DNA from: Nesterenkonia cremea
GTDB lineage: Bacteria > Actinomycetota > Actinomycetes > Actinomycetales > Micrococcaceae
DNA length: 64,000 nt
Direction of reading: 5' to 3'
Assembly (NCBI RefSeq): GCF_014642675.1
Contig: NZ_BMIS01000006.1
Span: 62,001 to 126,000 of the forward strand
Both the position numbers and the translations under genes were made by a program. The notes beneath the pieces are model-generated. The model was given only the letters and a program-made list of their open reading frames with translations. It did no database searches and was not told the origin of the DNA. Each line of letters begins with the position of its first letter. Position 1 is the stretch's first letter. Positions 26,280 to 57,640 of the stretch are shown piece by piece.

Positions 26280-26415
26280 GCCTCCAGCTTCCTGTGCGCA
26301 GCCTGACCGCCGCTACTGGGGTCCACCCTGAGATGACCCTGATTGTGCCTTGGGATCCCCGGATATCCGGGCGGATCCGGGATTCAGGGGCACCGGGACG
26401 TGGCAGGATGGGCCC

Positions 26416-27810
26416 ATGAGCATCCCTGCGAGCCGGCCCCCGCTGCGGCGCGGCCTGGACACTCCCGTGGCCGGAGTGTGCCTGGGTCTGGCTCGTCATC
26501 TGGGCGTCTCGGTGCCGGTGATGCGTACCGTGATGATCGCGCTGACCGTCGCCGGGGGCATCGGCCTGATCCTCTACTGCTGGCTCTGGGCCTTCGTTCC
26601 GGTGGAGACTGAGCCGGAGCCTGAGGCGGCTCGCCGCGGGCTCTCCGGTCCGGCGGTGGAGAGTCCCGACGCCGGCACCCACACCTCGGACGCCGGCTTC
26701 GACGCCGCCTCCGCAGCTTCAGGAACAGGCCCCGGCGAGGAGGACGTCTCCGCACGTCTGCGCCGCGGCCTCGATGTGATCACCCGCTCCCCGGAGGTGC
26801 TGGCCGGAGGCCTGCTGCTGGGTATCGCCGGGATCATGATGCTGCAGCTGGTGGGCATCCGGGTGGACTGGTGGCTGATCGGCCCGCCGGCCATCCTGGT
26901 GGTCGGACTGCTGCTGGCCTGGTCCCAGGTGGACGCCGGAGAGGGCGCCGGGACCACCCGCAGCCGTCAGTCGGTTCTGTGGCAGTTCGCCGCCGGAACC
27001 TTCCTGGTGCTGGTGGCCCTGCTGGTCATGGCCGGAGGCTTCGTCCCCGCGGGCGAGCTGATCCTGAGCCTGGTGCTGGCCGGAATGCTGCTGGCCGGCG
27101 TCGCGCTGGTGATCGCACCCTGGCTGATCAAGATGTACCGGACCATGTCGGTGGAGCGGGCGCGCGCCGTCGCGGAGGCCGAGCGGGCCGATATCGCGGC
27201 GCATCTGCACGATTCGGTGCTGCAGACCCTCGCGATGATCCAGAAGCAGCGCCACGATCCGGCGGCGGTGGGTCAGTTGGCCCGCAGCCAGGAGCGTCAG
27301 CTGCGCGACTGGCTCTATCGGCAGCAGGAGGCCCGCGGACAGGGCCCGAGCAGGCAGGGAGCCGGTGCGCAGGGCTCTCAGCCGGGCGCGGACGGCGTCG
27401 GGCAGCAGCCGCAGAGTCTGCGCGAGAAGCTGATGGCCGCGGCCGCCGAGCTGGAGGAGCTATACACGGTTCCGGTGGAGGTGGTGACCGTGGGAGAGTC
27501 TCACCGGGAGGACCATGAGGCGCTGGTGGCGGCCGCTCGCGAGGCGATCGTCAACGCACTCAAGCATGCCGGGCCGGCCTCGGTCTATGCGGAGTCGGAT
27601 GCGCGCGAGGACGCGGTGTTCATCCGCGACCGCGGGCAGGGCTTCGATGTGGATGCCATCGAGGAGGACCGGCTGGGCGTACGCGAATCGATCATCGGCC
27701 GGATGCGGCGAGCCGGCGGCCGGGCCCGGATCCGTTCCTCGGAGAGCGGCACCGAGGTCCAGCTGTTCCTGCCCGCTGAGGCACGAGTCCAGGAGGAGAC
27801 GGAGTCATGA
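26416..27810 (+). CDS. PspC-fused sensor histidine kinase (HisKA_3 type)
   Basis: 464 residues. The PspC domain at about 8-68 (TPVAGVCLGLARHLGVSVPV) is followed by about four membrane segments and a cytoplasmic NarL/DesK-class kinase. His265 in IAAHLHDSVLQTLAMI is the phosphorylation site. The ATPase part has EAIVNALKHAG (N box) and IRDRGQGFDVD (G box). The ATG at 26416 is preferred over the open frame from 26350. The 4-base overlap with the response regulator shows a two-component pair. It probably reads out envelope stress together with the divergent toastrack protein. Confidence 0.9.
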   Translation: MSIPASRPPLRRGLDTPVAGVCLGLARHLGVSVPVMRTVMIALTVAGGIGLILYCWLWAFVPVETEPEPEAARRGLSGPAVESPDAGTHTSDAGFDAASAASGTGPGEEDVSARLRRGLDVITRSPEVLAGGLLLGIAGIMMLQLVGIRVDWWLIGPPAILVVGLLLAWSQVDAGEGAGTTRSRQSVLWQFAAGTFLVLVALLVMAGGFVPAGELILSLVLAGMLLAGVALVIAPWLIKMYRTMSVERARAVAEAERADIAAHLHDSVLQTLAMIQKQRHDPAAVGQLARSQERQLRDWLYRQQEARGQGPSRQGAGAQGSQPGADGVGQQPQSLREKLMAAAAELEELYTVPVEVVTVGESHREDHEALVAAAREAIVNALKHAGPASVYAESDAREDAVFIRDRGQGFDVDAIEEDRLGVRESIIGRMRRAGGRARIRSSESGTEVQLFLPAEARVQEETES

Positions 27811-28481
27811 GTTCGACGACGGGCGCCCAGTCGCTGCGGCGTGTGGTGATCGTGGATGATCACGGGATCTTCCGCGCCGGTCTGAAGGCTGAGATGCAGG
27901 GCCGCGTGGATGTGGTGGGCGAGGCCCATGACGTGGAGACGGCCGCGGCCGCAGTGCGCGAGCGTATGCCCGAGGTGGTGCTGCTGGATGTGCACCTGCC
28001 CGGCGGCACCGGCGGCGGTGGGGCCGAGGTGGTCACCCGCTGCCGGGACCTGCTGGAGGAGGTCCGCTTCCTGGCCATCAGCGTCTCTGACCAGGCGGAA
28101 GATGTGGTCTCGGTGATCCGTGCGGGGGCCCGCGGCTATGTCACCAAGACCATCAGCACGGCGGATCTGGCCGATGCGGTGGAATCGGTGGCCACCGGCG
28201 ACGCCGTCTTCTCGCCCCGGCTGGCCGGCTTCGTCCTGGACGCCTTCGGCACCTCCGGACTGGTCGAGGATGTGCGCGATGAGGAGCTGGACCGGCTCTC
28301 GGCCCGGGAGGTGGAGGTCATGCGGCTGATCGCCCGCGGCTACACCTACCGGGAGATCGCCTCGGAGCTGTTCATCTCCATCAAGACGGTGGAGACCCAT
28401 GTCTCCAAGGTGCTGCGGAAGCTGCAGCTGTCCTCACGGCACGAGCTGACCCGCTGGGCGGAGCGCCGCCGGATCGTCTGA
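27807..28481 (+). CDS. LuxR/NarL-family response regulator
   Basis: 224 residues: receiver domain with the acidic pair in VIVDDHG, phospho-acceptor Asp61 in VVLLDVHLPGG and Lys in YVTKTIS, then a LuxR helix-turn-helix (about 155-219) with LSAREVEVMRLIARGYTYRE and IKTVETHVSKVLRKL. It is the cognate regulator of the overlapping kinase gene. From residue 132 to the stop the gene is present a second time at 39613-39896. An imperfect hairpin follows at about 28485-28504. Confidence 0.93.
   Translation: MSSTTGAQSLRRVVIVDDHGIFRAGLKAEMQGRVDVVGEAHDVETAAAAVRERMPEVVLLDVHLPGGTGGGGAEVVTRCRDLLEEVRFLAISVSDQAEDVVSVIRAGARGYVTKTISTADLADAVESVATGDAVFSPRLAGFVLDAFGTSGLVEDVRDEELDRLSAREVEVMRLIARGYTYREIASELFISIKTVETHVSKVLRKLQLSSRHELTRWAERRRIV
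28198..28481 (+). repeat. 284-bp direct repeat, copy 1 (3' end of the LuxR-type gene)
   Basis: This 3' part of the response regulator gene matches 39613-39896 base for base without indels, with about 16 mismatches by eye (about 94% identity). The match starts at GCGACGCCGTCTTCTC and stops exactly at the stop codon. The two copies bracket the molybdenum-hydroxylase block. Confidence 0.9.
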
Positions 28482-28550: not shown

Positions 28551-29282
28551 TCAGCTGCGGTGCCAGAAGTCTTCCAGGACCTCGTTGAGGGCGGATCCCA
28601 CCTGCGGGACCATATGCCGCTTCCCCCCGAGGATGGTCCTCTCCGCGCCGGTGCGCTCAGCGATCACGTCGCAGACTGCTTCGAAGGCGGGATGATGTCC
28701 TCCGGAGATGCTGAGGAGGGGGAAGGGTGCGGCGGCTAGGGCCTCGAAGTCGGGGTGGGCGTGCCACGGAGCTCTTTCCCGCATGAGGGAGGCGACTCCG
28801 TCCTCGAGGGCAGCCGGGAGCGGACGGTCGGGCCACTCGCGCTCGCCGATGGCCCGTGAGAAGCGCCGGTAGAACTCGAGGGTCGGGAGCTCCTCGGTCC
28901 AGAGGGCATTCAGCTCGTGGCGGGTGCGGACGACGGCGGGATGCTCGGTGATCCCGAAGGCGGGCGGCTCGATCACAGTCAGCGAACGTACACGGTCAGG
29001 ATTCTGGGCGGCGAGCAGCAGGGCGACGACGCCGCCGTAGGAGTGTCCTACCAGGTGGGCGCCGTCACCGAGCAGAGGCCGGTGAGCCTCGGTTTCAACG
29101 AGGAAGTCCACCCGCACCCGCGGGCTCTCTCCGTAGCCGGGACGGTCCGGGATGATCAGCTGCCATCGCTCGGCCAAGACTTCCTGCTTCCGCCAGTCGG
29201 CGGCACCGGTCGAGGCGTCGCAGTGCAGCATCACCACCCGTGGCCCCTCGCCGAGGCTCCGCACGGCGATCTCAGCAGTCAT
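28551..29282 (-). CDS. alpha/beta hydrolase
   Basis: 243 residues with the nucleophile Ser81 in LVGHSYGGVVALLLA, the oxyanion region VVMLHCDAST near the N-terminus and a C-terminal His in KRHMVPQVG. This is the general fold of esterases, thioesterases and C-C bond hydrolases. It starts 4 bases after the padR stop, so both form one unit facing the molybdenum-hydroxylase operon. A role in that pathway, for example hydrolysing a CoA or ring-cleavage intermediate, is a guess from position. Confidence 0.85.
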   Translation of the reverse strand: MTAEIAVRSLGEGPRVVMLHCDASTGAADWRKQEVLAERWQLIIPDRPGYGESPRVRVDFLVETEAHRPLLGDGAHLVGHSYGGVVALLLAAQNPDRVRSLTVIEPPAFGITEHPAVVRTRHELNALWTEELPTLEFYRRFSRAIGEREWPDRPLPAALEDGVASLMRERAPWHAHPDFEALAAAPFPLLSISGGHHPAFEAVCDVIAERTGAERTILGGKRHMVPQVGSALNEVLEDFWHRS

Positions 29283-29286
29283 CAGC

Positions 29287-29829
29287 TCACCCTTCCAGCT
29301 CGGAGCTCAGGTCCTTCCAGAAGTCGAGGGCGGCACGCTCCATGGCCAGGCCGAGCTTGAGCGGGACGAGGCGCGGCGCGACAGTGTCGACGGAGCCGAA
29401 ACGCTCTTGCATTTCCTCATAGGTGCCGATCCGTTCCGTGTGCTGGCGGATCTGCTCCTGTGCCAGGGTCAGCATGTCCCCCTCCTGGGCGAGCTCGGAG
29501 AAGAAGAGCTTCAGCTCGGCCACATCGCGGACCTGCATCGGTTCGGTCTCCGGCTCGGCCAGCCAGTGCTGCAGTGCGCGACGGCCTTCCTCGGTGAGGG
29601 AGAAGGTCTGCTTCCGCCGCCCCCCGTCCTCCGTGCAGATGTCCAGCAGCCCTGCCTCGGCCAGTCGGCGCGGCTCAGAGTAGAGCTGCGCGTGGGGGAA
29701 GTGCCAGAAGTAGCCCACGGAGTGCCCCACCGCGCGCTTGAGGTCATAGGACGTCGAAGGGCCGCGCAGGCCCAGGAGGCCAAGCACGACGTACGACGTC
29801 GTTGTGAGTCGAACCATATCGAGGTTCAT
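29287..29829 (-). CDS. PadR-family transcriptional regulator
   Basis: 180 residues. The winged helix covers about 9-80 (TTSYVVLGLLGLRGPSTSYDLKR, with YSEPRRLAEAGLLD as the recognition part), and the C-terminal helical dimer domain is of the Vir_act_alpha type (VRDVAELKLFFSELA). PadR proteins repress genes for phenolic or drug metabolism and release DNA when a small aromatic ligand binds. Its place divergent from an aromatic-acid type operon fits. GGAAAGG precedes the ATG. Confidence 0.9.
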   Translation of the reverse strand: MNLDMVRLTTTSYVVLGLLGLRGPSTSYDLKRAVGHSVGYFWHFPHAQLYSEPRRLAEAGLLDICTEDGGRRKQTFSLTEEGRRALQHWLAEPETEPMQVRDVAELKLFFSELAQEGDMLTLAQEQIRQHTERIGTYEEMQERFGSVDTVAPRLVPLKLGLAMERAALDFWKDLSSELEG

Positions 29830-29877
29830 TCTGTCACCTTTCCGGAAGTCTCTCCGGAGACTCCGTCACACACGGAA

Positions 29878-29906
29878 TTGTGCTTCCGGCCACAATGCTG
29901 TAACTT
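29878..29906 (+). promoter_or_regulatory. promoter of the molybdenum-hydroxylase operon
   Basis: TTGTGC (29878-29883), 17 bases, TAACTT (29901-29906). The predicted start at about 29913 falls inside the inverted repeat just downstream. Confidence 0.45.
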
Positions 29907-29911
29907 AAGTC

Positions 29912-29936
29912 ACATAGTATGAAACAGAACGTATGT
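29912..29936. promoter_or_regulatory. candidate PadR operator ACATA-N15-TATGT
   Basis: A perfect 5-bp inverted repeat, ACATA at 29912-29916 and TATGT at 29932-29936. PadR sites are commonly ATGT/ACAT-type palindromes. Binding here would cover the transcription start of the operon. Further small repeats (AGTCTC/GAGACT at about 29848-29863) lie nearer padR. Confidence 0.4.
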
Positions 29937-29994
29937 AATAGAAGGTCGGTTGGACTGCAGCTTCAACCGGTCTCCTGACCGAGAAGGGGCATCG

Positions 29995-32427
29995 ATGGCA
30001 TCAGCCGAGAGCAGCACCGGGTCCTACGTCGGGCAGCCCCTGGCGCGCATCGAGGACCCTGCTCTGGTGACCGGTCGAGGACGTTTTCTCGATGACCTCG
30101 ATCCGCTCCCCGGGACCCTAGTCGCCGCCGTGGTGCGCAGCCCGCATCCCCACGCCCGCATCCGGGGCGTGGACCTGGAGCGTGCCCGCCGGCACCCGGG
30201 TGTGGCCGCGGTGATCGGCCCGGAGGAGGTGCTGGAGACCCTCCGGCCCTTCCCGCTTTCCCTGAAGACTCCCATGCCCTACTACCCGACGGGTACGGAC
30301 AAGGTCCGCTTCGTCGGTGAGCCCGTCGCCGTCGTTGTCGCGACCGACCGCTACACCGCTGAGGACGCCGCCGAGCTGGTCCACATCGACTACGAGCTGC
30401 TGCCGGCCGTGGTCGAGACCGCCGACGCCGTGCGGGAGGACGCCCCGCTGCTGCATGACTCCGCCGGGAGCAACATCGCCAGCGACCGGCTCTTCGACTT
30501 CGGTGAGGTCGACTCCGCCTTCGAGGCAGCCGCCCACGTGGTCGCCGGCGAATACAGCTTTCCCCGTTACTCCTCCACCCCTATGGAGTGCTATTCGGTG
30601 ATCTCCGAATGGCGGGAGGAGGCCGGGGGGCCGCAGGTGACGGCATGGTCCAATTTCCACGGTCCTTTCTCTATGGTGCCGGTGCTGGCCGGGGCTCTCG
30701 GCATCGGGGCAGCCCAGCTCCGGCTCATCATTCCCCAGGACAACGGCGGCAGCTTCGGGATCAAGGCCGGCATCTATCCCTATGTCGCGCTGATGGCGGT
30801 GGCCAGCAAATACGCAGGACGGCCGGTGCGCTGGACTGAGGACCGCATCGAGCACCTGCTCGCCTCTTCCGCCGGTTCCGACCGGGTGATGCGCTTCTCC
30901 GCGGCAGTGGATGCGGAAGGCATCGTCCAGGCACTCGACGTCGACTTCCGGGAGAACGTCGGCGCCTACCTCCGTCCCCCGGAGCCGGCGACCCTCTACC
31001 GGTGCTTCGGGAACATCACCGGGGCCTACCGGATCGACAACGTCCGGCTGCGCTCGCGGGCGGTGGTCACGAACAAGGCACCCACCGGTCTCAACCGAGG
31101 ATTCGGCGGCCAACAGCTGTACTTCGGCCTGGAGCGGCTGATGGACAGGATCGCCCGCACCCTCGGCCAGAACCCGGCTGAGCTGCGCCGCCGCAATCTG
31201 GTCCCCACCGCGGCCTTCCCCTACGCCACTCCCACCGGCGGCATCTACGACTCCGGTGACTACGAGCAGGCGGTGGCAAAGGTCCTGGAGTCCAGCCGGT
31301 ACCAGCAGCTGCGGAAGGAGCAGGAAGAGGCCCGGGCCCGCGGGGAACTCGTCGGCACCGGCATCGCGCTCGCCGTCGAGCCCTCGGCCACCAACATCGG
31401 CTACGTCGGTCTGGCCACCCCTGCTGAGGAACGACCCCCGGGCCGGGACAAATCCGGCTCCACCGAACATGTGCGGGTCACCGTTGACCCCTCCGGCACC
31501 GTCTCGGTGCTCCTGGGCACCGTCCCTCAGGGTCAGGGTCATGCCACCGTGGCCCGGCAGGTGGTGGCCGACCGTCTGGGCCTGCCGCTGGAGAAGGTGG
31601 TCCCCAAGGTCGACATGGACACCGACAGCACCCCTTGGACGGTCACCTCCGGCAGCTACTCCTCCCGCTTCTCACCCTTGCTGACCTCTGCGCTGGTGGA
31701 GGCGGCGGACCGTGTGGCCGAGACCATCAAGGTGGCCGCCGGCGTGCTGCTGGAAGCGCCCCCGCAGGATCTTGAGCTCGACGGCGGGTTGGTGCGGGTC
31801 GCCGGGGCCGAAGAGCGTTCGGTCGCCTTCCGCCATGCCGCAGGGCTGGTGCATTGGGACCCGGGAGCGCTGCCCGACGGCGTGGACGCCCAGCTCTACG
31901 CAGAAGCGGCCTTCACTCCGCCGGAGTCCACCGCCCCCTCCCGCACCGACCAGATCAACTCTTCGCTGTGCTACGGGTTCGTCGCCGAGGTGGTCCAGGT
32001 GCGCATCGATCCGGAGACCTATGAGATCTCCATCCAGCAGGTCAACGCCGTCCACGACGCCGGAACCGTGCTGAACCCGCTGCTCATCGAGGGCCAGGTG
32101 CACGGGGCCATGGTCCACGGGCTGGGCGGCGCCCTCTACGAGGAGATGTCCTATACCGACAGCGGCCAGCCCACCTCCACCTTCATGGACTACCTCGTGC
32201 CGACCTCTGCCGAGGCGGACTTCCCCCTCACCGGAGATCGGGTGGTGACACCCTCACCGGTGACCAAGCTCGGAGCCAAGGGTTCCGGAGAGGGAAGCAG
32301 CATGAGCTTCCCGGCCGCCGTCGCTAGTGCGGTGGAAGACGCCCTCTCGGCCCACGGGATCGAGATCACCGCGCTGCCGCTGCACGGCAATGTCATCAAC
32401 GACCTGCTCACCCGCGCCACACCCTGA
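29995..32427 (+). CDS. molybdenum hydroxylase large (molybdopterin-binding) subunit
   Basis: 810 residues of the xanthine dehydrogenase/CO dehydrogenase large-subunit family, which carries the Mo-cytosine-dinucleotide cofactor. The Mo-site segments QDNGGSFGIKAG and KGSGEGSSMSFPAAVASA are present, with Glu766 the probable catalytic base. The active-site loop is LNRGFGGQQ (366-374), not the AYxCSFR of form I CO dehydrogenase or the AYRGAGR of form II, so CO is an unlikely substrate. The ATG at 29995 follows GAGAAGGGG. It is the first gene of a seven-gene operon. Confidence 0.9.
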   Translation: MASAESSTGSYVGQPLARIEDPALVTGRGRFLDDLDPLPGTLVAAVVRSPHPHARIRGVDLERARRHPGVAAVIGPEEVLETLRPFPLSLKTPMPYYPTGTDKVRFVGEPVAVVVATDRYTAEDAAELVHIDYELLPAVVETADAVREDAPLLHDSAGSNIASDRLFDFGEVDSAFEAAAHVVAGEYSFPRYSSTPMECYSVISEWREEAGGPQVTAWSNFHGPFSMVPVLAGALGIGAAQLRLIIPQDNGGSFGIKAGIYPYVALMAVASKYAGRPVRWTEDRIEHLLASSAGSDRVMRFSAAVDAEGIVQALDVDFRENVGAYLRPPEPATLYRCFGNITGAYRIDNVRLRSRAVVTNKAPTGLNRGFGGQQLYFGLERLMDRIARTLGQNPAELRRRNLVPTAAFPYATPTGGIYDSGDYEQAVAKVLESSRYQQLRKEQEEARARGELVGTGIALAVEPSATNIGYVGLATPAEERPPGRDKSGSTEHVRVTVDPSGTVSVLLGTVPQGQGHATVARQVVADRLGLPLEKVVPKVDMDTDSTPWTVTSGSYSSRFSPLLTSALVEAADRVAETIKVAAGVLLEAPPQDLELDGGLVRVAGAEERSVAFRHAAGLVHWDPGALPDGVDAQLYAEAAFTPPESTAPSRTDQINSSLCYGFVAEVVQVRIDPETYEISIQQVNAVHDAGTVLNPLLIEGQVHGAMVHGLGGALYEEMSYTDSGQPTSTFMDYLVPTSAEADFPLTGDRVVTPSPVTKLGAKGSGEGSSMSFPAAVASAVEDALSAHGIEITALPLHGNVINDLLTRATP

Positions 32428-32469
32428 CACGCTCCCGAGCAACAGCCCCAAGGAAGAAGGAGAAGGAAG

Positions 32470-33249
32470 ATGCCCCTCACCGGTGGAGAGATCCGGCTCG
32501 AGCGCAGCCACGACGGCCGAGTCGCCAACCTCACTCTGGACCACGGCCGGTTCAACATCATCACCTTGGAGACCCGCAGCCTCATGGCGGAGCGGTTCGC
32601 AGAGATCGACGCCGACGATCGCATCCAGGCCGTCGTCATCCGTGCCGAGGGGGAGCACTTCACCTCCGGCGGCGACATCGCCGGCTTCATGGAGGTTGAG
32701 CCTTTCGACCTCACCGACCTCGGCCAGGACATCACCGCCCCCGCACGTTCCCCGAAGCCCGTGATCACCGCGGTGGACGGCTACTGCTTCGGGGTGGGCT
32801 TCGAATTGGCGCTCTCCACCGATATCCGTCTGATCACCGACCGCACGGAGTTCGCCCTGCCGGAGATGCGTCTGGGCATGATCCCCGGCTCTGGCGGGAC
32901 CCAGCGCCTCGCCCGGCTGATCGGGCTCTCCCGGGCCAAGTACCACGTGATGACCGCTGAGCGGATCAAGGCGCGGCAGGCACTGGACTGGGGGCTGGCA
33001 GCCTCCGTCAGCGAGGATGCCGATGGGCTGGAGGCCGAGGTCGAGCGTGTGGTCTCAACACTGCTTGGCTACTCCCCGGTTGCGCTGCGGACCGTCAAGG
33101 AGGTGCTGGACCGCGGAATCGATGCTCCGCTCTACTCCGGCATCGAGCTGGAGCGGAAGTCCTACGCCATGCTGCGCGCCACCCATGACTTCGGTGAAGG
33201 CGTCGCAGCCTTCAATGAGAAGCGAACCCCCCGCTTCGAAGGCCGCTGA
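32470..33249 (+). CDS. enoyl-CoA hydratase/isomerase family protein
   Basis: 259-residue crotonase-fold protein. Oxyanion-hole residues sit in HFTSGGDIAGF (64-73). Both acids of true hydratases are present: Glu112 in GVGFELALSTDIRL and Glu132 in FALPEMRLGMIPGSGGTQRL. So it probably adds water to an unsaturated acyl- or cyclic-CoA. It is embedded between the large and FAD subunits of the molybdenum enzyme, with a 1-base gap to the latter, implying that the pathway works on CoA thioesters. Confidence 0.9.
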   Translation: MPLTGGEIRLERSHDGRVANLTLDHGRFNIITLETRSLMAERFAEIDADDRIQAVVIRAEGEHFTSGGDIAGFMEVEPFDLTDLGQDITAPARSPKPVITAVDGYCFGVGFELALSTDIRLITDRTEFALPEMRLGMIPGSGGTQRLARLIGLSRAKYHVMTAERIKARQALDWGLAASVSEDADGLEAEVERVVSTLLGYSPVALRTVKEVLDRGIDAPLYSGIELERKSYAMLRATHDFGEGVAAFNEKRTPRFEGR

Positions 33250-33250
33250 C

Positions 33251-34150
33251 GTGAAGCCTGCACCTTTCTCCTACGTCCGCCCCACCCGGCTCGACGACGT
33301 CGTCGGAGAGCTTGAGGAGGCGGAGAGCGCGGGCAGCGGCAAGGTGATCGCCGGAGGGCAGTCCCTGCTCCCGGTGCTCGCCATGCGCCTGGGCAGGCCG
33401 AGGACCCTGGTGGACATCACCAGGGTTCCGGAGCTGGCCGGTCTGCGGGAAGAGGGCGGAAGCATACGCATCGGAGCCGCCGTCCGTCAGCGGCAGGTCG
33501 AGCGGGAAGCCGCTCAACGGATCCCCCTGGTGGGTCACGCACTGCCGTGGATCGGACACCGGGAGATCCGCAGCCGCGGCACCGTCTGCGGATCGCTCGC
33601 CCATGCCGACCCTTCCGCCGAACTGCCCGCCGTCGCGCTCTGCCTTGGTGCCGTGCTCACCGTCACCGGCTCGCGGGGCAGCAGAGAGGTCCCGGCGGCG
33701 GACTTCTTCACCGGAGCCATGTCCACTGTGCTCGGCGGAACAGAGCTGGTCACCGCGGTCCGCTTCCCGGCACCGCGGGCAGGCGAGGGATTCGGCTTCG
33801 GGGAGATGGCCCGGCGCCATGGGGATTTCGCCCTGGCCGGGGCCGCCGCGCGGGTCCGCCTGGACGGGGGAGGGGTCGTCGAGGCCCAGCTGGTCGGCTT
33901 CGGCGTCGCGGACCGCGCCCGTTCTCAGGACTTTACCGGGCCGCTGGCCGAGGCGGTCAGCCGGCACGGCCAGGACGAGAAGGCCCTCACCGCAGTTATG
34001 ACCGAGGCAGTCAGCGAGATGGCGGAGGACGTGGTCACCGCCGGAGACGCGCATGCCTCGCAGGACTACCGCCGGCGCCTCATCCGGGTCCTCGGCACCC
34101 GGGCGCTGGTGCGGGCCTGCGCCGACAGCAGGAGGAGAGCGAAGAGATGA
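33251..34150 (+). CDS. molybdenum hydroxylase FAD-binding subunit
   Basis: 299 residues of the CoxM/XdhB-type FAD subunit. FAD pyrophosphate-binding stretches are VIAGGQSLLPVLAMRLGRP and TVCGSLAHADPSAELPAVAL. It passes electrons from the Fe-S subunit to an outside acceptor. The GTG at 33251 is taken as start: it follows the enoyl-CoA hydratase stop by one base and gives the family start VKPAPFSYVRPTRLDDVV. Its stop overlaps the Fe-S gene by 4 bases. Confidence 0.92.
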   Translation: MKPAPFSYVRPTRLDDVVGELEEAESAGSGKVIAGGQSLLPVLAMRLGRPRTLVDITRVPELAGLREEGGSIRIGAAVRQRQVEREAAQRIPLVGHALPWIGHREIRSRGTVCGSLAHADPSAELPAVALCLGAVLTVTGSRGSREVPAADFFTGAMSTVLGGTELVTAVRFPAPRAGEGFGFGEMARRHGDFALAGAAARVRLDGGGVVEAQLVGFGVADRARSQDFTGPLAEAVSRHGQDEKALTAVMTEAVSEMAEDVVTAGDAHASQDYRRRLIRVLGTRALVRACADSRRRAKR

Positions 34151-35400
34151 GCCGGAGCGCCACACTCAGAAGGACACTGAAAAACCCCCTGAAGGGCTTA
34201 CGGAACGGCCGGGGCAGTGCAGGAGAGGAGACCCTGCGCGTGGAGGCCGAGGAGACCGTCCGGGTCTCCTTCACGGTCAACGGCCGGCCGGCCGAGGTGG
34301 ACGTCGCACCCCGGGTGACGCTCTCCGACGCCCTGCGCGACCACCTCTCCCTGACCGGCACCCACATCGGGTGCGAGCACGGGGTCTGCGGGATGTGCAC
34401 CGTCATCGTCGACGGCGACGCCGCACGCGCCTGTCTGCTGCTGGCCTGCCAGCTCGAGGGTGCAGAGATCATGACGGTGGAGGGCCTCGGCACGCCAGAC
34501 GACCTCCACCCGCTGCAGGACTCGTTCAGCCGCCACCATGCCCTGCAGTGCGGATTCTGCACCCCCGGCATGCTGATGAGCGCCTATGAGCTCCTCGACC
34601 ATGAGCCTGGGGTGCCGAAGGAGGAGCTGCCGGAGAAGATGTCCGGGGTGCTCTGCCGCTGCACGGGCTACCGGCACATCATGGACGCGGTCTCCGACGT
34701 CGCCGAGCAACACCCTGAAGGTGCTCCGGCACCCCGGAACTGCGGCACCGCGCAGCTGTTGCCCCGCACCACCGCCGGAGGTCCCGGATCGACGGCTGAA
34801 GAGGATCTGCAGCACCGCGCACCGGCAGAGATCACCCTCCCCAGCTCCGAACCCACGGTCACAGTCGGTGTGGAGGAGCATATCCGCGCCACCCCGGAGG
34901 AGATCTGGGAGGTGCTGCAGGACACAGACCGTGTGGCCCGGTGCCTGCCAGGGGCTGAGCTCATCGAAGATTTCGGTGAGGACCGGTATCTGGGACGCAT
35001 CAGAGTCGCCCTGGGGCCGGTGAAACTCTCCTTCATCGGAGACATCCATGTCACCGAACGCAGTGAGGAGAACCGCTCCATCCGGGCGCTGGCCCAGGCC
35101 GAGGACGCCGCCGGAGGCAGTGTGCAGGCCGGCGTCGCCCTCTCCGCGCAGCCGCACGAGGGAGGCAGCCTGCTCAGCGCGGACGCCGACCTGTTCATGG
35201 TCGGGAAGATCGCCCAGATGGGCCGCTCGCTGGCCGGAGACGTCAGCGCCGACATGTTCGCCCAGTTCACCAGGGCCCTCGATGCCACGGCTCGAGGGGA
35301 GGAACCGACCGACACCCAAGCGCCCAGCTCTGTCGCAATGTTCACCCGCCTGATGTCCACCCGCGCGAAGGCGCTGGTGGGCCGCCTGAGAAGGAGATGA
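34147..35400 (+). CDS. fusion of [2Fe-2S] small subunit and CoxG/SRPBCC domain
   Basis: 417 residues. Residues 38-190 form a CoxS-type small subunit with both clusters complete: Cys76, Cys81, Cys84, Cys96 (plant type) and Cys135, Cys138, Cys170, Cys172. After a linker (about 190-238) comes a CoxG-like SRPBCC domain starting VGVEEHIRATPEEIWEVLQD, with LPGAELIEDFG. In CO dehydrogenase operons CoxG is a separate protein, thought to recruit the enzyme to the membrane. The basic C-terminal end (STRAKALVGRLRRR) could support membrane contact. Confidence 0.9.
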   Translation: MSRSATLRRTLKNPLKGLRNGRGSAGEETLRVEAEETVRVSFTVNGRPAEVDVAPRVTLSDALRDHLSLTGTHIGCEHGVCGMCTVIVDGDAARACLLLACQLEGAEIMTVEGLGTPDDLHPLQDSFSRHHALQCGFCTPGMLMSAYELLDHEPGVPKEELPEKMSGVLCRCTGYRHIMDAVSDVAEQHPEGAPAPRNCGTAQLLPRTTAGGPGSTAEEDLQHRAPAEITLPSSEPTVTVGVEEHIRATPEEIWEVLQDTDRVARCLPGAELIEDFGEDRYLGRIRVALGPVKLSFIGDIHVTERSEENRSIRALAQAEDAAGGSVQAGVALSAQPHEGGSLLSADADLFMVGKIAQMGRSLAGDVSADMFAQFTRALDATARGEEPTDTQAPSSVAMFTRLMSTRAKALVGRLRRR

Positions 35401-35401
35401 C

Positions 35402-36967
35402 ATGCAGTTAGGCCGCACCTTGGAATGGACGGCAGCCCGCTTCCCGGAGCGCACCGGGTTCGCCGGAGAGCGCCGAATGACCTATCAGGAGTGGGACGGG
35501 CGCACCAACCAGATCGCCAATGCGCTCAGCTCCGCCGGGATCCGGCGCGGAGACCGCGTCGCCACCTTCCTGGCCAATACGGAGGTCATGGCCTCCACCC
35601 ACCTGGCGCTGCAGAAGCTCGGAGTGATGTCCACGCCGCTGAACATCCGGCTCTCCCCGCCGGAATTGGCCTATTGCCTCGACGACGCCGAACCCTCGCT
35701 GGTGATCACCGATGATCATGCCAGGAAAGTGGCACAAGCGGCCCTGGGACAGAGCCGGTACAGCCCCCGCGTGCTCCATGCCGGCTCGTCACCGGTGGAG
35801 GGGGCGAAGGAGTTCGAGACGCTGGTGGCTCAGGCCGATTCCTCCGCCCCCGGCATCGCAGTGGAGGAATCCGATCCCAGCGTGATGCTCTACACCTCCG
35901 GCACCACCGGCAAGCCCAAGGGTGTCCCGCGCACCCAGCGCAACGAGTATGCGGCCTCCGTGGCTCATATCATGCAGTGTCAATACGCCTACGGAGAGGC
36001 CACGCTGGGGGCGATGCCCATGTATCACACCATGGGGCTGCGCTCGCTGCTGTCCATGGTGGTCATCGGAGGGAAGTTCGTGGAGCTGCCGGCCTATGAG
36101 GCGCGCCGGGCTCTGGAGCTCATCGTCTCCGAGGGGATCAGCGCCCTCTACCTGGTCCCCACCGCCTATTGGGCGCTGGCGCAGACCGGGGAGCTCGGCC
36201 GCATCTCCTCTACCGTGAAGAAGCTGGCCTTCGCCGGGGCTCCGATGACCTCCGCCCTGTGCGAAAAGCTCATCGCGGAGCTGAAGCCGGAGGTCTTCGT
36301 CAACCATTACGGCTCCAGCGAGATCTATACCTTCTCCATCGAGGAGGACGCCACCCGTAAACCTGGCTGCGCGGGTCGGGCCGGGCTGCACTCGCGGCTG
36401 ATGGTCGTGGACCCACAGACGGAGTCCGGGCATCGCCAGCTGCCCGTCGGCGAGGTCGGGGAGATCGTCGCCTCGCTGGAGTCTGACGAGTCCTTCCAGG
36501 GGTACTGGAAGCGGCCCGATGCCGATGCCAAATCCCTGCGCAGCGGCTGGTACCACACCGGGGACCTCGGCCATCTCGACGAGGACGGCGATCTCTGGGT
36601 GGATGGCCGGGTCGACGACATGATCATCACCGGCGGAGAGAACGTCCACCCCGTAGAGGTGGAGGACGTGCTCTCCCACCATCCGGAGATCGCCGAGGTG
36701 ACGGTCGTCGGCCTGCAGGACGAGAAGTGGGGCCAGGCGGTCACCGCGTTCGTCGTGCTCCATGACGAGACCAAGGATGCTGCCGCCCTGGCTGAAGAGA
36801 TCAGGGAATGGGCCGGCACCGAGGCCCCGCTCTCCCCTTATAAACGGCCCAAGCGAGTCCACATCGTCAATGCCATCCCCAAGTCCCCCGTGGGTAAGAT
36901 TCTCCGCCGCAAGCTTGTGGCCGGGGAAGCCGGAGAGTACGAGTCCCGGAACAGCAATCCATCGTGA
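35402..36967 (+). CDS. AMP-forming acyl/aryl-CoA ligase
   Basis: 521 residues of the ANL superfamily; activates a carboxylic acid to its CoA thioester through an acyl-AMP. Motifs are complete: VMLYTSGTTGKPKGVPRTQ (A3), FVNHYGSSEIYTFS (A5), HTGDLGHLDEDGDLWVDGR (A7/A8), ITGGENVHPVEVE, and the catalytic lysine in PKSPVGKILRRK. The substrate pocket cannot be decoded by eye; the BenE-type carrier downstream suggests an aromatic acid. It starts one base after the Fe-S gene. Confidence 0.92.
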   Translation: MQLGRTLEWTAARFPERTGFAGERRMTYQEWDGRTNQIANALSSAGIRRGDRVATFLANTEVMASTHLALQKLGVMSTPLNIRLSPPELAYCLDDAEPSLVITDDHARKVAQAALGQSRYSPRVLHAGSSPVEGAKEFETLVAQADSSAPGIAVEESDPSVMLYTSGTTGKPKGVPRTQRNEYAASVAHIMQCQYAYGEATLGAMPMYHTMGLRSLLSMVVIGGKFVELPAYEARRALELIVSEGISALYLVPTAYWALAQTGELGRISSTVKKLAFAGAPMTSALCEKLIAELKPEVFVNHYGSSEIYTFSIEEDATRKPGCAGRAGLHSRLMVVDPQTESGHRQLPVGEVGEIVASLESDESFQGYWKRPDADAKSLRSGWYHTGDLGHLDEDGDLWVDGRVDDMIITGGENVHPVEVEDVLSHHPEIAEVTVVGLQDEKWGQAVTAFVVLHDETKDAAALAEEIREWAGTEAPLSPYKRPKRVHIVNAIPKSPVGKILRRKLVAGEAGEYESRNSNPS

Positions 36968-37010
36968 CGCTCAGGAAGTCTCATCACTTGAACCGAAGAA
37001 GGTGGCCATC

Positions 37011-38303
37011 ATGGCTGTACCCGACACCCCTCAGAGAGCAGAGACCGTAGAAGAGAAGCATCTCCTGGAGCGGGGGCCAGGTTTCCGATCCGGCCTCCGC
37101 GATCTCCCGGGGAATCTCAACTCGGCGACCATCGGCGCCGGCCTCATCGCAACGATCTTCGGCTGCACCGGCCCAGCCCTCATCGTCATCAACGGCGCCA
37201 ACGAGGCCGGCCTCAGCGCCGGGCTGATCGCCTCATGGATCTTCGGGATCTATGTCTTCGGCGGCCTCATCTCCATCATCATGGCGCTGCACTACAAGCA
37301 GCCGATCACCGGTGCCTTCTCCATCCCCGGAGCGGCTCTGGTCACCGCCGCGCTTCCCAACTTCACCTTCCCCGAGATGGTTGGCGCCTTCCTCATGGCG
37401 GGGCTGATCGTGCTGCTGGTCGGGGTGACCGGCCTGGTGCGTAAGGTGGCCCATTGGATTCCATTCCCCATCGTGATGGCGATGATAGCCGGTGCCCTCA
37501 TCCGCTTCGGCGTGGACATCGTGAACTCCGCGGCTGCTGCGCCTGCCGTCGCCGGCGCGGCTCTGCTCGGCTTCGTCCTGCTCAGCCGTTTCCTCCCGAA
37601 GGTTCCCGGGGTGCTCGGCGCGCTGGTCCTGGGGCTCATCGCCGCGGGCGTGATGGGCAGCTTCGGCAGCCTTGAGGGCGGGCTGGGTCTCACCGCTCCG
37701 GAGCTGGTCGCGCCCTCCTTCGACCTGGGCGCCATGCTCGCCGTCGCGATTCCGCTGGCCCTGCTGGTCATCGGTGCGGAGAATGCACAAGCCATGGGAG
37801 TTCTCATGGCCGAGAGGTACAAGCCTCCCTTCAACGTCATGACCATCATCAGCGGGGTCGGCGGGATCCTCGCACCGCTCTTCGGCGGGCACAACGCCAA
37901 CATCGCCGGGCCGATGACGGCCATCTGCTCCTCCGACCAGGCTGGTGAGGAGCGCTCCGGACGTTATGCCGCCACTGTGGTCAACGGAGTACTGTTCGCG
38001 CTCTTCGGCATCTTCGCCGGAGTGACGGTGGCTCTGGTCACGGTGATGCCCGCTGAGCTGACCGCCATGGTGGCCGGCCTGGCGATGATTGGAGTGTTGG
38101 TCAGGTCCTTCAGGGCGAGCTTCTCTGAAGCTCGGTTTCAGCTCGGGGCCTTCTTCGCCCTCGTCATCGCCATGAGCGGTATTGCGATGTTCAACATCTC
38201 CGCCCCCTTCTGGGCGCTGATCGGCGGCGTGCTGGCCTCCCTGCTCCTGGAGCCACGGGACTTCCGGGCACGCCGCGAGGAGGAAGAGGCCGGAAGCGCC
38301 TGA
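37011..38303 (+). CDS. BenE-family membrane transporter (benzoate/H+ symport type)
   Basis: 430 residues with about 12 membrane segments. FSIPGAALVTAALPNFTFPE and the late GGHNANIAGPMTAICSS are the hallmarks of BenE transporters, which import benzoate with protons. The late motif deviates somewhat from the usual NLAAITAAIC, so another aromatic or heteroaromatic acid is possible. The ATG at 37011 is preferred; GTG at 37002 is an alternative. It supplies the likely substrate to the CoA ligase encoded just before it. Confidence 0.87.
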   Translation: MAVPDTPQRAETVEEKHLLERGPGFRSGLRDLPGNLNSATIGAGLIATIFGCTGPALIVINGANEAGLSAGLIASWIFGIYVFGGLISIIMALHYKQPITGAFSIPGAALVTAALPNFTFPEMVGAFLMAGLIVLLVGVTGLVRKVAHWIPFPIVMAMIAGALIRFGVDIVNSAAAAPAVAGAALLGFVLLSRFLPKVPGVLGALVLGLIAAGVMGSFGSLEGGLGLTAPELVAPSFDLGAMLAVAIPLALLVIGAENAQAMGVLMAERYKPPFNVMTIISGVGGILAPLFGGHNANIAGPMTAICSSDQAGEERSGRYAATVVNGVLFALFGIFAGVTVALVTVMPAELTAMVAGLAMIGVLVRSFRASFSEARFQLGAFFALVIAMSGIAMFNISAPFWALIGGVLASLLLEPRDFRARREEEEAGSA

Positions 38304-38329
38304 TCCGTCCGCACCCTGAGAGGACATCC

Positions 38330-39544
38330 ATGCGTGAACTCGCCAGTCGGCTCCGTGACGCCTGGGGGGCGGGAGAGCCCGTCGCCCTGGCCACGGTGGT
38401 CTCCACCTTCCGCTCCGCCCCGCGGGACCCCGGCGCCTCCATGTTGGTCACCGCACAGGGGGAGGTGGTGGGCTCCGTCTCCGGCGGCTGTGTGGAGGGC
38501 GCTCTCTACGAGACCGGCCGGGAAGTCCTGGAGACGGGTGCTCCGCGGCTGGAGCGCTACGGAGTCAGCGACGACGACGCCTTCTCCGTCGGGCTCACCT
38601 GCGGCGGCACACTGGAGATTTTTGTGGAGCGGGTCTCTCCACGGGAGTTCCCGGAGCTGGGCGGCGTCCTCGCTGATATGGAGGCCGGGCGGCCGGTAGC
38701 GGTGGCGACTGTCGTCGACCACCCGGACGCCGCCCAGCGGGGCAGGCGGGCCGTGCTGCGTCCGGAGGACCCCGGTCCCGGCTGCGAGGCTCTGGGCGCT
38801 TCCTCCCCGGGGAACCCCGTCTCTGGGGGGCTCGCCCCTGCTTTCTCCTTCGGTTGGGAGGATGAGAGGGCCGAGCATGCCGTCCTCCAGGACGCACGGG
38901 CTCTCTTGGAGGCCGGCCGCAGCGGCATTCTGGAATACAGTCCGGCGGGGGAGCGGCAGGGGCCTGGGCAGCGCATCTTCGTCTCCTCCTTCGCCCCGCG
39001 GGACCGGATGATCATCTTCGGAGCCATCGACTTCGCCGCCGCGGTCGCCGAGATCGGAGCCTTCCTCGGCTACTGTGTCACCGTCTGCGACGCCCGGCCG
39101 GTCTTCGCCACGGCGGAACGCTTCCCTCACGCCGAGGAGGTCGTGGTGCAGTGGCCGGACGAATACCTCCGGCAGGAGAAGGAGGCCGGCCGGATCGATG
39201 GCAGCACCGTCCTCTGCGTGCTCACCCACGAGGCCAAGTTCGATGTCCCCGTCCTGCAGGAGGCGTTGTCCGGGCCGCCGCTGGGATACATCGGCGTCAT
39301 GGGTTCTCGGCGCACCCATGAGGAACGGCTGCGGCGTCTCGGGGAGGCCGGTCTGAGGGAGGAGCAGCTTGAGCGCCTCTCCAGCCCCATCGGCTTGGAC
39401 CTGGGCGGGCGCACACCGGCGGAGACGGCGGTCAGCATCGCCGCCGAGATCGTCGCCTCCCGCCGCGGCGGCAGCGGGCTGCCCCTGCGGGAGCGCCACG
39501 GTCCCATCCATCGTTCCGCAGAGGTGTCAGAACTCAAGGGATAG
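38330..39544 (+). CDS. XdhC/CoxF-type molybdenum cofactor maturation protein
   Basis: 404 residues. The N-terminal XdhC_CoxI domain has GSVSGGCVEGALYE with Cys54 and LTCGGTLEIFVE. The C-terminal Rossmann domain has RMIIFGAIDFAAAVAEIGAF and GYIGVMGSRRTHEER. XdhC proteins bind the Mo cofactor, protect it during sulfuration and insert it into the partner enzyme. It closes the operon, so the molybdenum enzyme carries its own dedicated maturase. GAGAGGA precedes the ATG. Confidence 0.9.
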   Translation: MRELASRLRDAWGAGEPVALATVVSTFRSAPRDPGASMLVTAQGEVVGSVSGGCVEGALYETGREVLETGAPRLERYGVSDDDAFSVGLTCGGTLEIFVERVSPREFPELGGVLADMEAGRPVAVATVVDHPDAAQRGRRAVLRPEDPGPGCEALGASSPGNPVSGGLAPAFSFGWEDERAEHAVLQDARALLEAGRSGILEYSPAGERQGPGQRIFVSSFAPRDRMIIFGAIDFAAAVAEIGAFLGYCVTVCDARPVFATAERFPHAEEVVVQWPDEYLRQEKEAGRIDGSTVLCVLTHEAKFDVPVLQEALSGPPLGYIGVMGSRRTHEERLRRLGEAGLREEQLERLSSPIGLDLGGRTPAETAVSIAAEIVASRRGGSGLPLRERHGPIHRSAEVSELKG

Positions 39545-40007: not shown

Positions 40008-41810
40008 TCAGCCGCGCACGGCCCACACGGTGGTGTCCGCAGGGACCACGACGCCGTCCGTGCCGCTGCTGCTCCCGGCCGCAGCATCTGCCGCGGAGCT
40101 CAGCACCACGGACCAGCCCGCCGGCAGCTCCACCGGTTCGGTGCCGGTGATGGTCAGCAGCAGCACGTCGGGGCGCTCGCCGGCTGGGTCGCTGCTCACC
40201 AGAGCCAGCACACCTCCGGCACCGGCCAGCTGAGGCTCATCGGCCAGGGAAGCGGTCCCCAGGCCGTACTCCCGGCGCAGCCGCAGCGCCTGACGGTGCA
40301 GCTCCAGCGTGGAGCCGGCGTCGCCGCGCTGGGAGCTCACCGCATAGGCGTCCCAATCATCGGGCTGGGGCAGCCAGGACTCTCCGGTGGGGGAGAAGCC
40401 ATAGGCCGGGGTCCCCGCCTCCCATGGGATGGGGACCCGGCAGCCGTCGCGGCCGCGCTCTTCGCCGCCGGTCCGGTGGAAGGTGGGGTCCTCGCGGGAT
40501 TCGGCGGGCAGCGTGGTGTGTTCGGGCAGCGCCAGCTCGTCGCCCTGGTAGAGGTAGGCGGAGCCGGGCAGTCCCAGCATCAGCAGCGACGCCGCACGGG
40601 CCCGGCGCAGTCCGAGCTCCCGGTCCGGCTGGGGATCCTGCGGGCCGATGCCCTTGTTCGGGCCGGAGGCGGCACCCTCGGCGAAGCCCAGCCGGGAGGC
40701 GTGCCGGACGACGTCGTGGTTGGAGAGCACCCAGGTGGTCGGAGCGTCCACCGAATCGTTGACCGCATAGGACTCGGCGATGGTCGCGCGCAGCGCGGAG
40801 GCTTCCCAGGGCTGGGTCAGGAAGGCGAAGTTGAAGGCCTGGTGCATCTCATCGGAGCGGACGTAGCGGGCCAGCCGCTCCAGCGGATCCACCCATGCCT
40901 CGGCCACCAGAATCCGTTGGCCCTCATACTCGTCCAGGATGGTGCGCCAGTGCCGGTAGATCTCGTGGACGCCGTCCTGGTCGAAGTAGGGCGGCATGCC
41001 CGGGTTGTCCCCGGGGGGCCGGGCCGCATCGCCGCCGGGGGTCTCCTCGGTGCCGGCGACCATCTCCACATGGCCTGACCAGTCCGGCAGCCCCTCAGCC
41101 TTGACCATGCCGTGGGCGACGTCCACCCGGAAGCCGTCCACGCCGCGGTCCAGCCAGAAGCGCAGGATGCTGTCGAACTCGCCGCGGACCTCGGGGTTCT
41201 CCCAGTTCAGGTCTGGCTGGGAGGTGTCGAAGAGGTGCAGGTACCACTGGCCGTCCTCGGCCCAGGCGGAGCCCGGGGCGTCCTCGCGCTCGCGGACCCG
41301 GGTCCAGGCCGCTCCGCCGAAGATGGATTCCCAGTCGTTGGGCGGCTGGTCTCCGCCGGGACCCTTGCCCTCACGGAACATGTATCGGTCCCGCTCCGGG
41401 CTGCCGGGTCCGGCGGCCAGGGCGGCCCGGAACCATCCGTGCTGGTCAGAGGTGTGGTTGGGCACCAGGTCCACCACCACGCGGATGCCCAGGCGGTGGG
41501 CCTCGGCGATCAGCGCATCGGCGTCCTCCAGGGTGCCGAAGAGCGGATCGATGTCCCGGTAGTCGGCCACGTCGTAGCCGGCGTCCTTCTGCGGGGAGCG
41601 GTAGAAGGGGGAGATCCAGACGGCGTCCACGCCCAGCTCCGCTAGGTGGTCCAGGCGGGAGGTGATGCCGGGCAGGTCGCCCATACCGTCGCCGTCGGCG
41701 TCGGCGAAGGAGCGCGGGTAGATCTGGTAGATCACCGCATGGCGCCACCATTCGGTCTGCTCGGGTGCCTGGAGGTGGAGGTGCTGGTCAGCGTCGGGCA
41801 GGGGGGACAT
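40008..41810 (-). CDS. GH13 alpha-glucosidase (oligo-1,6-glucosidase/maltase type)
   Basis: 600-residue cytoplasmic glycoside hydrolase; no signal peptide. It starts WWRHAVIYQIYPRSFADADG, typical of the alpha-glucosidase branch of GH13. Catalytic residues are the nucleophile Asp230 (GFRVDVAHG), acid/base Glu304 (LVAEAWVD) and Asp366 (LSNHD); DLVPNHTSD is region I. It should cleave glucose from maltose or isomaltose-like oligosaccharides taken up by the adjacent transporter. It lies 33 bases after the LacI gene on the same strand. Confidence 0.93.
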   Translation of the reverse strand: MSPLPDADQHLHLQAPEQTEWWRHAVIYQIYPRSFADADGDGMGDLPGITSRLDHLAELGVDAVWISPFYRSPQKDAGYDVADYRDIDPLFGTLEDADALIAEAHRLGIRVVVDLVPNHTSDQHGWFRAALAAGPGSPERDRYMFREGKGPGGDQPPNDWESIFGGAAWTRVREREDAPGSAWAEDGQWYLHLFDTSQPDLNWENPEVRGEFDSILRFWLDRGVDGFRVDVAHGMVKAEGLPDWSGHVEMVAGTEETPGGDAARPPGDNPGMPPYFDQDGVHEIYRHWRTILDEYEGQRILVAEAWVDPLERLARYVRSDEMHQAFNFAFLTQPWEASALRATIAESYAVNDSVDAPTTWVLSNHDVVRHASRLGFAEGAASGPNKGIGPQDPQPDRELGLRRARAASLLMLGLPGSAYLYQGDELALPEHTTLPAESREDPTFHRTGGEERGRDGCRVPIPWEAGTPAYGFSPTGESWLPQPDDWDAYAVSSQRGDAGSTLELHRQALRLRREYGLGTASLADEPQLAGAGGVLALVSSDPAGERPDVLLLTITGTEPVELPAGWSVVLSSAADAAAGSSSGTDGVVVPADTTVWAVRG

Positions 41811-41843
41811 ATCGCTCCTGTGGGTGAGGGGTCGGTACGGGTC

Positions 41844-42872: not shown

Positions 42873-42912
42873 AGATCTCCTTCGGTCGGGATCAGCTTAG
42901 AGGCTGCACACG

Positions 42913-42942
42913 TTGCACGAAAGTTTCTGAAAAATTTTGCAC
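42913..42942. promoter_or_regulatory. candidate LacI-family operator
   Basis: Two TTGCAC copies 24 bases apart (42913 and 42937) frame the palindrome GAAAGTTTC (42919-42927) and an AAAATTTT core. The region overlaps the -35 of the transporter promoter and lies 40-70 bases before the LacI start, so one site could control both directions. Confidence 0.5.
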
Positions 42943-42966
42943 AAGGATTCCGGGCGGTGCTATGGT
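42937..42966 (+). promoter_or_regulatory. promoter of the malEFG-like operon
   Basis: TTGCAC (42937-42942), 18 bases, TATGGT (42961-42966); the start codon follows 64 bases downstream. Confidence 0.6.
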
Positions 42967-43030
42967 CGGCTCAATGTGATCAGCGCCACTGCGCCGATCG
43001 ACCTGACCGCCCTCGACTCCGGGAGTCCTG

Positions 43031-46738: not shown

Positions 46739-46805
46739 GGGCAGCGGCCGGCGTCGTCGGACTCGGCCTCCGGAACTCAGCCCATCTGGCCCGAGGCCGG
46801 CACGT

Positions 46806-50055: not shown

Positions 50056-50163
50056 CTGTACCTTTGCGCTTCCCCTCTACTTTCGTGCCTTCAAATAGCG
50101 GTGGGCATCCTGGTGTGAGCGCATTTCCTACGGAAGCTACGAAGGTCTGTGGAAGGATCCCTC

Positions 50164-53667
<3,504 letters not shown>

Positions 53668-53752
53668 CGCGAAGAGGTCTGAGCGAACTCCTTGAGCGCG
53701 CAGCGCTCTCCACTGACGTCACGATTTTTAGAGAAAAGAGAGATACAGGACT

Positions 53753-57640
<3,888 letters not shown>

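Follow-up and report, generated by a model that had tools for sequence, protein, structure and literature searches.

A 64,000-nucleotide stretch of the genome of the actinobacterium Nesterenkonia cremea (contig NZ_BMIS01000006.1, positions 62,001 to 126,000; hereafter the window, whose own numbering is used throughout) carries an intact operon at 28551–39544 that encodes a three-subunit molybdenum (Mo) hydroxylase, an AMP-forming coenzyme A (CoA) ligase, a crotonase-family enzyme, a BenE-family importer and an XdhC-family maturase. The present study suggests, with a probability of about 85%, that this operon is an actinobacterial form of the furoate lower pathway already known as hmfABCDE, accompanied by BenE and an XdhC-type maturase. 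The iron-sulfur subunit of the hydroxylase is fused to a CoxG domain, which bears on where the electrons of such an enzyme may go. A first-pass annotation made from the sequence alone had read the operon as one unit for import, CoA activation and Mo hydroxylation of an aromatic-type acid, which is the right class, and had furoate on its list of substrates.

Gene content and layout of the operon

Seven genes run along the forward strand (29995–39544), with spacings of −4 to 43 bp for the start codons chosen in the analysis. The run opens with the large molybdopterin subunit (29995–32427; PF02738, PF20256, PF01315), a predicted HmfA-type 2-furoyl-CoA dehydrogenase by its place in the tree, its LNRG-FGG loop and its active-site Glu; the ATG at 29995 was picked by comparison, the listed open reading frame (ORF) beginning at TTG 29950. 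It is followed by a crotonase (enoyl-CoA hydratase) family gene (32470–33249; PF00378), whose HmfE-type product is a probable 2-oxoglutaroyl-CoA hydrolase by plasmid search and catalytic residues, by the HmfB-type FAD subunit (33251–34150; PF00941, PF03450), which starts at GTG and overlaps the next gene by 4 bases, and by the HmfC-type [2Fe-2S] subunit with its C-terminal CoxG domain and basic tail (34147–35400; PF01799, PF00111, PF06240). The last three genes encode the AMP-forming acyl-CoA ligase (35402–36967; PF00501, PF13193) and the BenE-family importer (37011–38303; PF03594), which plasmid searches point to as an HmfD-type 2-furoyl-CoA synthetase and a probable furoate importer, respectively, and a PsfD-like Mo cofactor maturase of the XdhC family (38330–39544; PF13478, PF02625). 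Divergent from these, on the reverse strand, lie a PadR-family regulator gene (29287–29829; PF03551 at 37.5 bits, PF10400) and, directly downstream of it, an alpha/beta hydrolase gene (28551–29282; PF00561/PF12697), whose product could be a lactone opener, a possible but unproven role.

All of these genes are full ORFs of the families that the first-pass annotation had named. Its outline of the operon also holds, except that the alpha/beta hydrolase it mentions falls just outside its start at 29287; its list of families was correct and lacked the C-terminal CoxG domain. A consensus scan of the forward strand from 29877 to 38823 found no terminator-like site and, because the gaps are also short, the ligase and BenE look co-transcribed with the Mo hydroxylase, which does not favor the unrelated transcript that had been considered for them. 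In GC content (0.675–0.682), the region does not stand out from the rest of the window.

Orthology to hmf-type clusters

The hmf gene set, namely three Mo-hydroxylase subunits, a CoA ligase and a crotonase-family enzyme, is complete in this one cluster. In the passages available from the published account, HmfABC is the 2-furoyl-CoA dehydrogenase, HmfD is the 2-furoyl-CoA synthetase and HmfE is a proposed 2-oxoglutaroyl-CoA thioesterase, and lactone hydrolysis has no gene assigned to it; the Pseudomonas pseudoalcaligenes locus adds benE and psfD, PsfD being a xanthine/CO dehydrogenase-type maturation factor (PMC6678421). Those passages present BenE as a furoate carrier by way of speculation, stating that no benE homologue had previously been described in furoate assimilation (PMC6678421). 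The view of the pathway as undescribed is therefore not upheld, since hmfABCDE has the same composition. The cluster table for P. umsongensis, as far as its source is available, likewise has entries for a transporter of furoic acid, an accessory psfD and a putative 5-hydroxy-2-furoyl-CoA hydrolase termed “hyd” (PMC12064950).

With hmfABCDE of Cupriavidus basilensis HMF14 (roles as in the available parts of PMC6678421) the window shares the three hydroxylase subunits, the ligase and the crotonase-family enzyme. In the window, however, the crotonase gene stands between the large-subunit and FAD genes, the iron-sulfur subunit is fused to CoxG, the regulator is of the PadR family, and its own genome has no UbiD gene. 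The locus of P. pseudoalcaligenes CECT 5344 (hmfABCDE, benE, psfD, araC) matches the window, according to the same excerpts, function for function, down to BenE and the XdhC-like maturase, but its gene order and regulator class are unlike those of the window (PMC6678421). On Paracoccus yeei plasmid pTT13-3, the large, FAD and iron-sulfur subunits, ligase, crotonase, BenE and XdhC also lie in one run, although CoxG there forms the C-terminus of the large subunit (994 aa) and the regulator is of the helix-turn-helix type. Geobacillus kaustophilus pHTA426 (L033) has XdhC, the three subunits, CoxG, ligase and crotonase, with UbiD nearby, but its CoxG is a gene of its own and BenE is absent from the stretch shown.

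When the ligase, crotonase and BenE of the window were run by tblastn against 72,556 plasmid records, they led to the same kind of locus. The first 36 of the 40 ligase matches listed (45.9–48.5% identity) are all hmf-type loci and lie within 6 kb of a crotonase gene that was located independently with a Cupriavidus query. The first 36 of the 45 crotonase matches listed (45.2–49.8%) are the same 36 records, followed, among the matches listed, by one Priestia record at 42.6% and then by others at 39.7% or less. The first five of the 30 BenE matches listed (58.5–60.2%) adjoin hmf-type clusters, the next four being haloarchaeal records at about 50% and the remainder of the 30 reaching at most 41.3%. 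Annotated clusters occur in Geobacillus kaustophilus (with UbiD), Dinoroseobacter (with UbiD and UbiX), Bosea, Cupriavidus pinatubonensis and Azospirillum; that of C. necator NH9 adjoins UbiD, UbiX and a GMC oxidoreductase, which are genes of the hmfFGH kind, that of Paracoccus yeei has BenE and XdhC, and that of Rhizobium sp. TCK has a benzoate transporter. The P. phymatum STM815 plasmid bears an unannotated cluster with the same gene run, and P. phymatum is listed, in the available part of its source, among the mutualist strains studied, all of which have HmfABC, HmfD and HmfE (PMC4101177). On a Bosea vestrisii plasmid (L035, 9043–11968), the annotation divides the large-subunit gene into two overlapping pieces, which a frameshift may explain.

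A quick maximum-likelihood analysis of the large subunit, with the 102 rows thinned to 69, gave a tree that has SH-aLRT support only and came with long-branch warnings. The window protein groups with 21 actinobacterial rows (SH-aLRT 100), within a 46-row group (SH-aLRT 99) made up of the window, actinobacterial, Bacilli and proteobacterial hmf-type rows and four others; six carbon monoxide (CO) dehydrogenase rows that score over cut-off fall outside it. Clustering of the large subunit with an enzyme of known substrate, which the first-pass annotation had thought would tell against its proposal, is thus largely what is seen, the hmf clusters in the tree being identified by gene content and not as biochemically studied proteins. 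The substrate loop reads LNRG-FGG in the window and in all 41 actinobacterial rows, LNRG-FGG or LVRG-FGG in 7/7 proteobacterial rows (four of them identical to the window's), and LIRG-YGG in 20 of the 26 Bacilli rows. In CO dehydrogenases, this loop bears the copper-binding cysteine and reads CSFR (6/6 rows).

Crotonases have two catalytic glutamates, numbered Glu144 and Glu164. The crotonase of the window retains the first, as do all 75 rows aligned, and has Tyr in place of the second. This loss argues against a plain hydratase, as the enzyme had been read; a hydrolase fits, without proof, and the HmfE-type 2-oxoglutaroyl-CoA hydrolase of the literature proposal is more likely than a hydratase.

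Sister loci in the Actinobacteria

A census of 41 actinobacterial loci shows that the core of the operon is common: crotonase and ligase are each present in 40, the FAD subunit in 39, the iron-sulfur subunit in 38 and PadR in 36, and this repeated linkage argues that the core arrangement is not due to chance. In four of the five loci without PadR, the sequence starts no more than about 700 bases from the large-subunit gene, and in L075 no PadR match was found despite 10 kb of upstream sequence. The full seven-gene neighborhood, a search for which had been proposed, is another matter, since BenE and XdhC occur together only in L039 and L047; an alpha/beta hydrolase is likewise present in just 2 of the 41, and other sister loci use other transporters, such as MFS, SSF or TRAP-type genes. 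The window belongs to a subset of ten loci with the ligase downstream, the ligase being upstream in the other set. The large-subunit gene itself is rare and patchy in the class, being found at E ≤ 1e-150 in 8 of 394 genomes (67–100% identity, the window's genome included). Within the genus, one of the 29 other genomes has it (91%), and its best named-record match is a Nesterenkonia metagenome bin (91%).

UbiD genes occur within about 10 kb in six of the 41 loci (four Saccharopolyspora, one Prauserella and one Amycolatopsis), all in the ligase-upstream set and none in the subset of the window. Only the UbiD of L055 was set against solved structures; it scores 452 bits with 6h6v and 220 bits with the next family, indole-3-carboxylate decarboxylase. 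In the available text of its source, 6H6V is PtHmfF, and HmfF is the furandicarboxylate decarboxylase (PMC8988006). The motif EHLLLG or EHLILG is present in the full-length UbiD proteins of the six actinobacterial loci and of L033, L034 and L131 and is absent from L104, four further UbiD proteins, which are cut by locus ends, lying outside this count. Residue H297 of HmfF, as named in the excerpts of PMC7976604, corresponds to the His of EHLLLG at position 296 of the printed 6h6v chain if a one-residue shift is assumed.

A CoxG domain on the iron-sulfur subunit

The C-terminus of the iron-sulfur subunit is a CoxG domain (PF06240, 57.9 bits; cut-off, 22.2), and its best match, both by sequence (78.7 bits) and by fold (TM 0.87 over the target), is CoxG of Mycobacterium smegmatis (8uds). 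The two have the same domain fold and a C-terminal tail after it, but the mycobacterial CoxG is a separate protein that serves CO dehydrogenase, whereas the domain in the window is joined to the iron-sulfur subunit of another enzyme. The title of the 8uds crystal structure reads “minus lipid anchoring C-terminus”; the actinobacterial fusions end in a basic tail, which is helical in the predicted structure of the window protein. That prediction (mean pLDDT 71.7, pTM 0.51) has block means mostly of 84–96 in the CoxG half, is weak over much of the iron-sulfur half, with residues 68–115 under 50, and is silent on the mutual placement of the halves.

Three placements of CoxG are seen. In the actinobacteria, the iron-sulfur–CoxG fusion is present in 38 of the 38 loci with an iron-sulfur gene in reach, 37 by the census script together with L074, which was scored as separate owing to an adjoining second cluster yet is fused. 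In the Bacilli, CoxG has a gene of its own within 5 kb in 22/26 loci and about 6 kb off in L099; none was seen at loci L082, L101 and L105. In the Proteobacteria, it forms the C-terminus of the large subunit in seven of eight loci, hand-picked from the plasmid hits, and in the eighth (L035), where the large gene is split in two, the second part bears it. A search of the 394 class genomes, which scored just 2 to 4 candidates per genome and was not exhaustive, matched both fusion halves in one frame in seven, all among the eight carriers of the large subunit; the match in the eighth carrier (G249) covers only the iron-sulfur half. Three further iron-sulfur–CoxG spans, in genomes G236 and G305, were rejected as fusions, being neighboring separate genes.

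This pattern suggests membrane docking of furoyl-CoA dehydrogenase, with quinone as the recipient of its electrons. A broader proposal, which we advance tentatively and at somewhat less than even odds, is that CoxG is integral to 2-furoyl-CoA dehydrogenases in three phyla, by three modes of attachment, and that their natural acceptor may be the membrane quinone pool via CoxG, as proposed for CO dehydrogenase. Among the acceptors given for 2-furoyl-CoA dehydrogenase in enzyme nomenclature is a membrane fraction, and the subunits of the P. putida Fu1 enzyme are reportedly near 97, 33 and 21 kDa. CoxG is described, in the portions available, as a menaquinone-binding membrane protein and proposed carrier of CO dehydrogenase electrons to quinone (PMC13240472). 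A CoxG homologue in Sulfolobus serves as the anchor of glycerol-3-phosphate dehydrogenase and, according to its authors in the excerpted text, takes no part in electron transfer (PMC11962113), which speaks against assuming quinone transfer and makes anchoring alone the more cautious reading. A literature search that did not include “fusion” as a term found no report of CoxG-based membrane docking or quinone feeding by furoyl-CoA dehydrogenase; “furoyl-CoA” and “CoxG” occurred together in one paper, in places that are unconnected in the text available (PMC8941161).

Alternative explanations

Several observations weigh against furoate as the substrate. The large subunit is just 43–50% identical to the plasmid hmf-type relatives listed, the tie to HmfA–E of C. 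basilensis (ADE20399–ADE20403) runs via gene clusters and papers, and the regulator is PadR, versus the AraC or LysR type of described clusters. Few of the sister loci have BenE or XdhC (6/41 and 2/41), and there are no UbiD matches in the window's own genome of 3.08 Mb, so that furoate, and not furandicarboxylate, would be used; the HmfF-type UbiD decarboxylase, taken here as the criterion for the hmf upper pathway from hydroxymethylfurfural (HMF) to furoate, is accordingly lacking there. At the second catalytic site of the crotonase, all 41 actinobacterial rows have Tyr, Phe or His, versus Asp in 6/8 proteobacterial and 23/25 other rows, those of the Bacilli included. Three large-subunit copies on one contig of Candidatus Tectomicrobia (L080, L083 and L103; 48–50% identical to that of the window) fall in the same 46-row group with the loop PNRG-YGC, yet no clear hmf-type ligase or crotonase was found near them, and at two of the three loci the large subunit is the one member of the operon set that shows near the match; large-subunit identity from the mid-40s to 50% is therefore not in itself proof of furoate. 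A Halobaculum large subunit is 44% identical, and its locus, on a Halobaculum magnesiiphilum plasmid (L037, 3151–14342), has BenE, two AMP ligases, Mo hydroxylase subunits and XdhC and lacks the crotonase; this cluster is possibly a related pathway for another acid. In favor of the furoate pathway, moaA is present in the window's own genome.

Thiophene- and pyrrole-carboxylates are chemical analogues of furoate, and the operon could apply the same chemistry to another heteroaromatic acid, such as thiophene- or pyrrole-2-carboxylate, with a furoyl-CoA-dehydrogenase-like enzyme of shifted substrate. A branch of 0.41 sets the actinobacterial group well apart from its hmf-type counterparts in other phyla, its crotonase differs at one catalytic position, and the ligase-downstream subgroup of the window has no UbiD gene, all of which would suit such a shift. 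It is nonetheless improbable, given that the large-subunit loop is the same as that of several proteobacterial hmf-type rows and that the UbiD-carrying actinobacterial loci have crotonases with the same Tyr/Phe/His change (Tyr in L055). Far less probable is the dehydroxylation of the 4-hydroxybenzoyl-CoA reductase kind that had been offered, or some other benzoyl-CoA pathway. BenE, a CoA ligase and a three-subunit Mo enzyme are all there, and 1rm6 is a distant relative (237 bits), but all three NCBIfam equivalog cut-offs are missed (TIGR03193, 145.3 bits versus 257.8; TIGR03194, 380.3 versus 994.55; TIGR03195, 66 versus 404.55), the closest BenE proteins are those linked to hmf, and the ligase and crotonase both point to hmf. 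No labelled 4-hydroxybenzoyl-CoA reductase over cut-off was found in 119 genomes of the phylum, and the tree row named HBCRlike (L118, 814 bits versus 994.55) is an unconfirmed reference on a very long branch. The slightest probability goes to a CO dehydrogenase, or a generic aldehyde or xanthine oxidase, with coincidental neighbors: among solved structures CoxL comes closest (8uem, 417 bits) and CoxG is present, but the Cys-Ser-Phe-Arg copper motif is replaced by LNRG-FGG, TIGR02416 scores 421 bits versus a cut-off of 991.15, and the linkage with ligase and crotonase is conserved. Mo,Cu CO dehydrogenase was rejected on the missing copper-binding Cys and this score, and xanthine or purine catabolism because the best purine models are far under cut-off.

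Proposed route and its implications

In the furoate pathway as we would reconstruct it, BenE would import 2-furoate, the ligase would convert it to 2-furoyl-CoA, and the XdhC-matured Mo hydroxylase would place a hydroxyl on furan C5 with oxygen from water. The 5-oxo tautomer would yield 2-oxoglutaroyl-CoA, the ring opening spontaneously or through the adjacent alpha/beta hydrolase, and the crotonase-family enzyme would free 2-oxoglutarate for the tricarboxylic acid cycle; PadR may control the operon. Electrons would pass by way of the [2Fe-2S] centers and FAD to quinone at the membrane, with the fused CoxG domain as the dock. What the sequence itself shows is the gene content, the layout of the operon, its orthology to hmf-type clusters and the CoxG fusion; the substrate, the individual reactions, transport, regulation, docking and the acceptor of the electrons are inferred from these.

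What had been seen as an unknown pathway would in this way become a named one, and the hmf furoate pathway would extend to an actinobacterial operon type. The operon supports the published guess of BenE as a furoate carrier, and CoxG points to a concrete destination for the electrons of furoyl-CoA dehydrogenase. CoxG, joined on independently in three lineages, would then offer a natural experiment in how Mo hydroxylases couple to respiration, one of use for strains that detoxify furfural-rich biomass.

Genes flanking the operon

On one side of the operon lie genes for a PspC-domain sensor histidine kinase and a LuxR-type response regulator (26350–28481), adjoined by a second PspC gene on the reverse strand (24762–26279). 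Downstream, a sugar-use block (40008–49163) comprises an alpha-amylase family enzyme, a LacI regulator, ABC transporter parts and a GH3 enzyme, and farther on come the genes of the RNA polymerase beta and beta-prime subunits, with a ribosomal protein L3 match (50149–57640 and 63261–63923).

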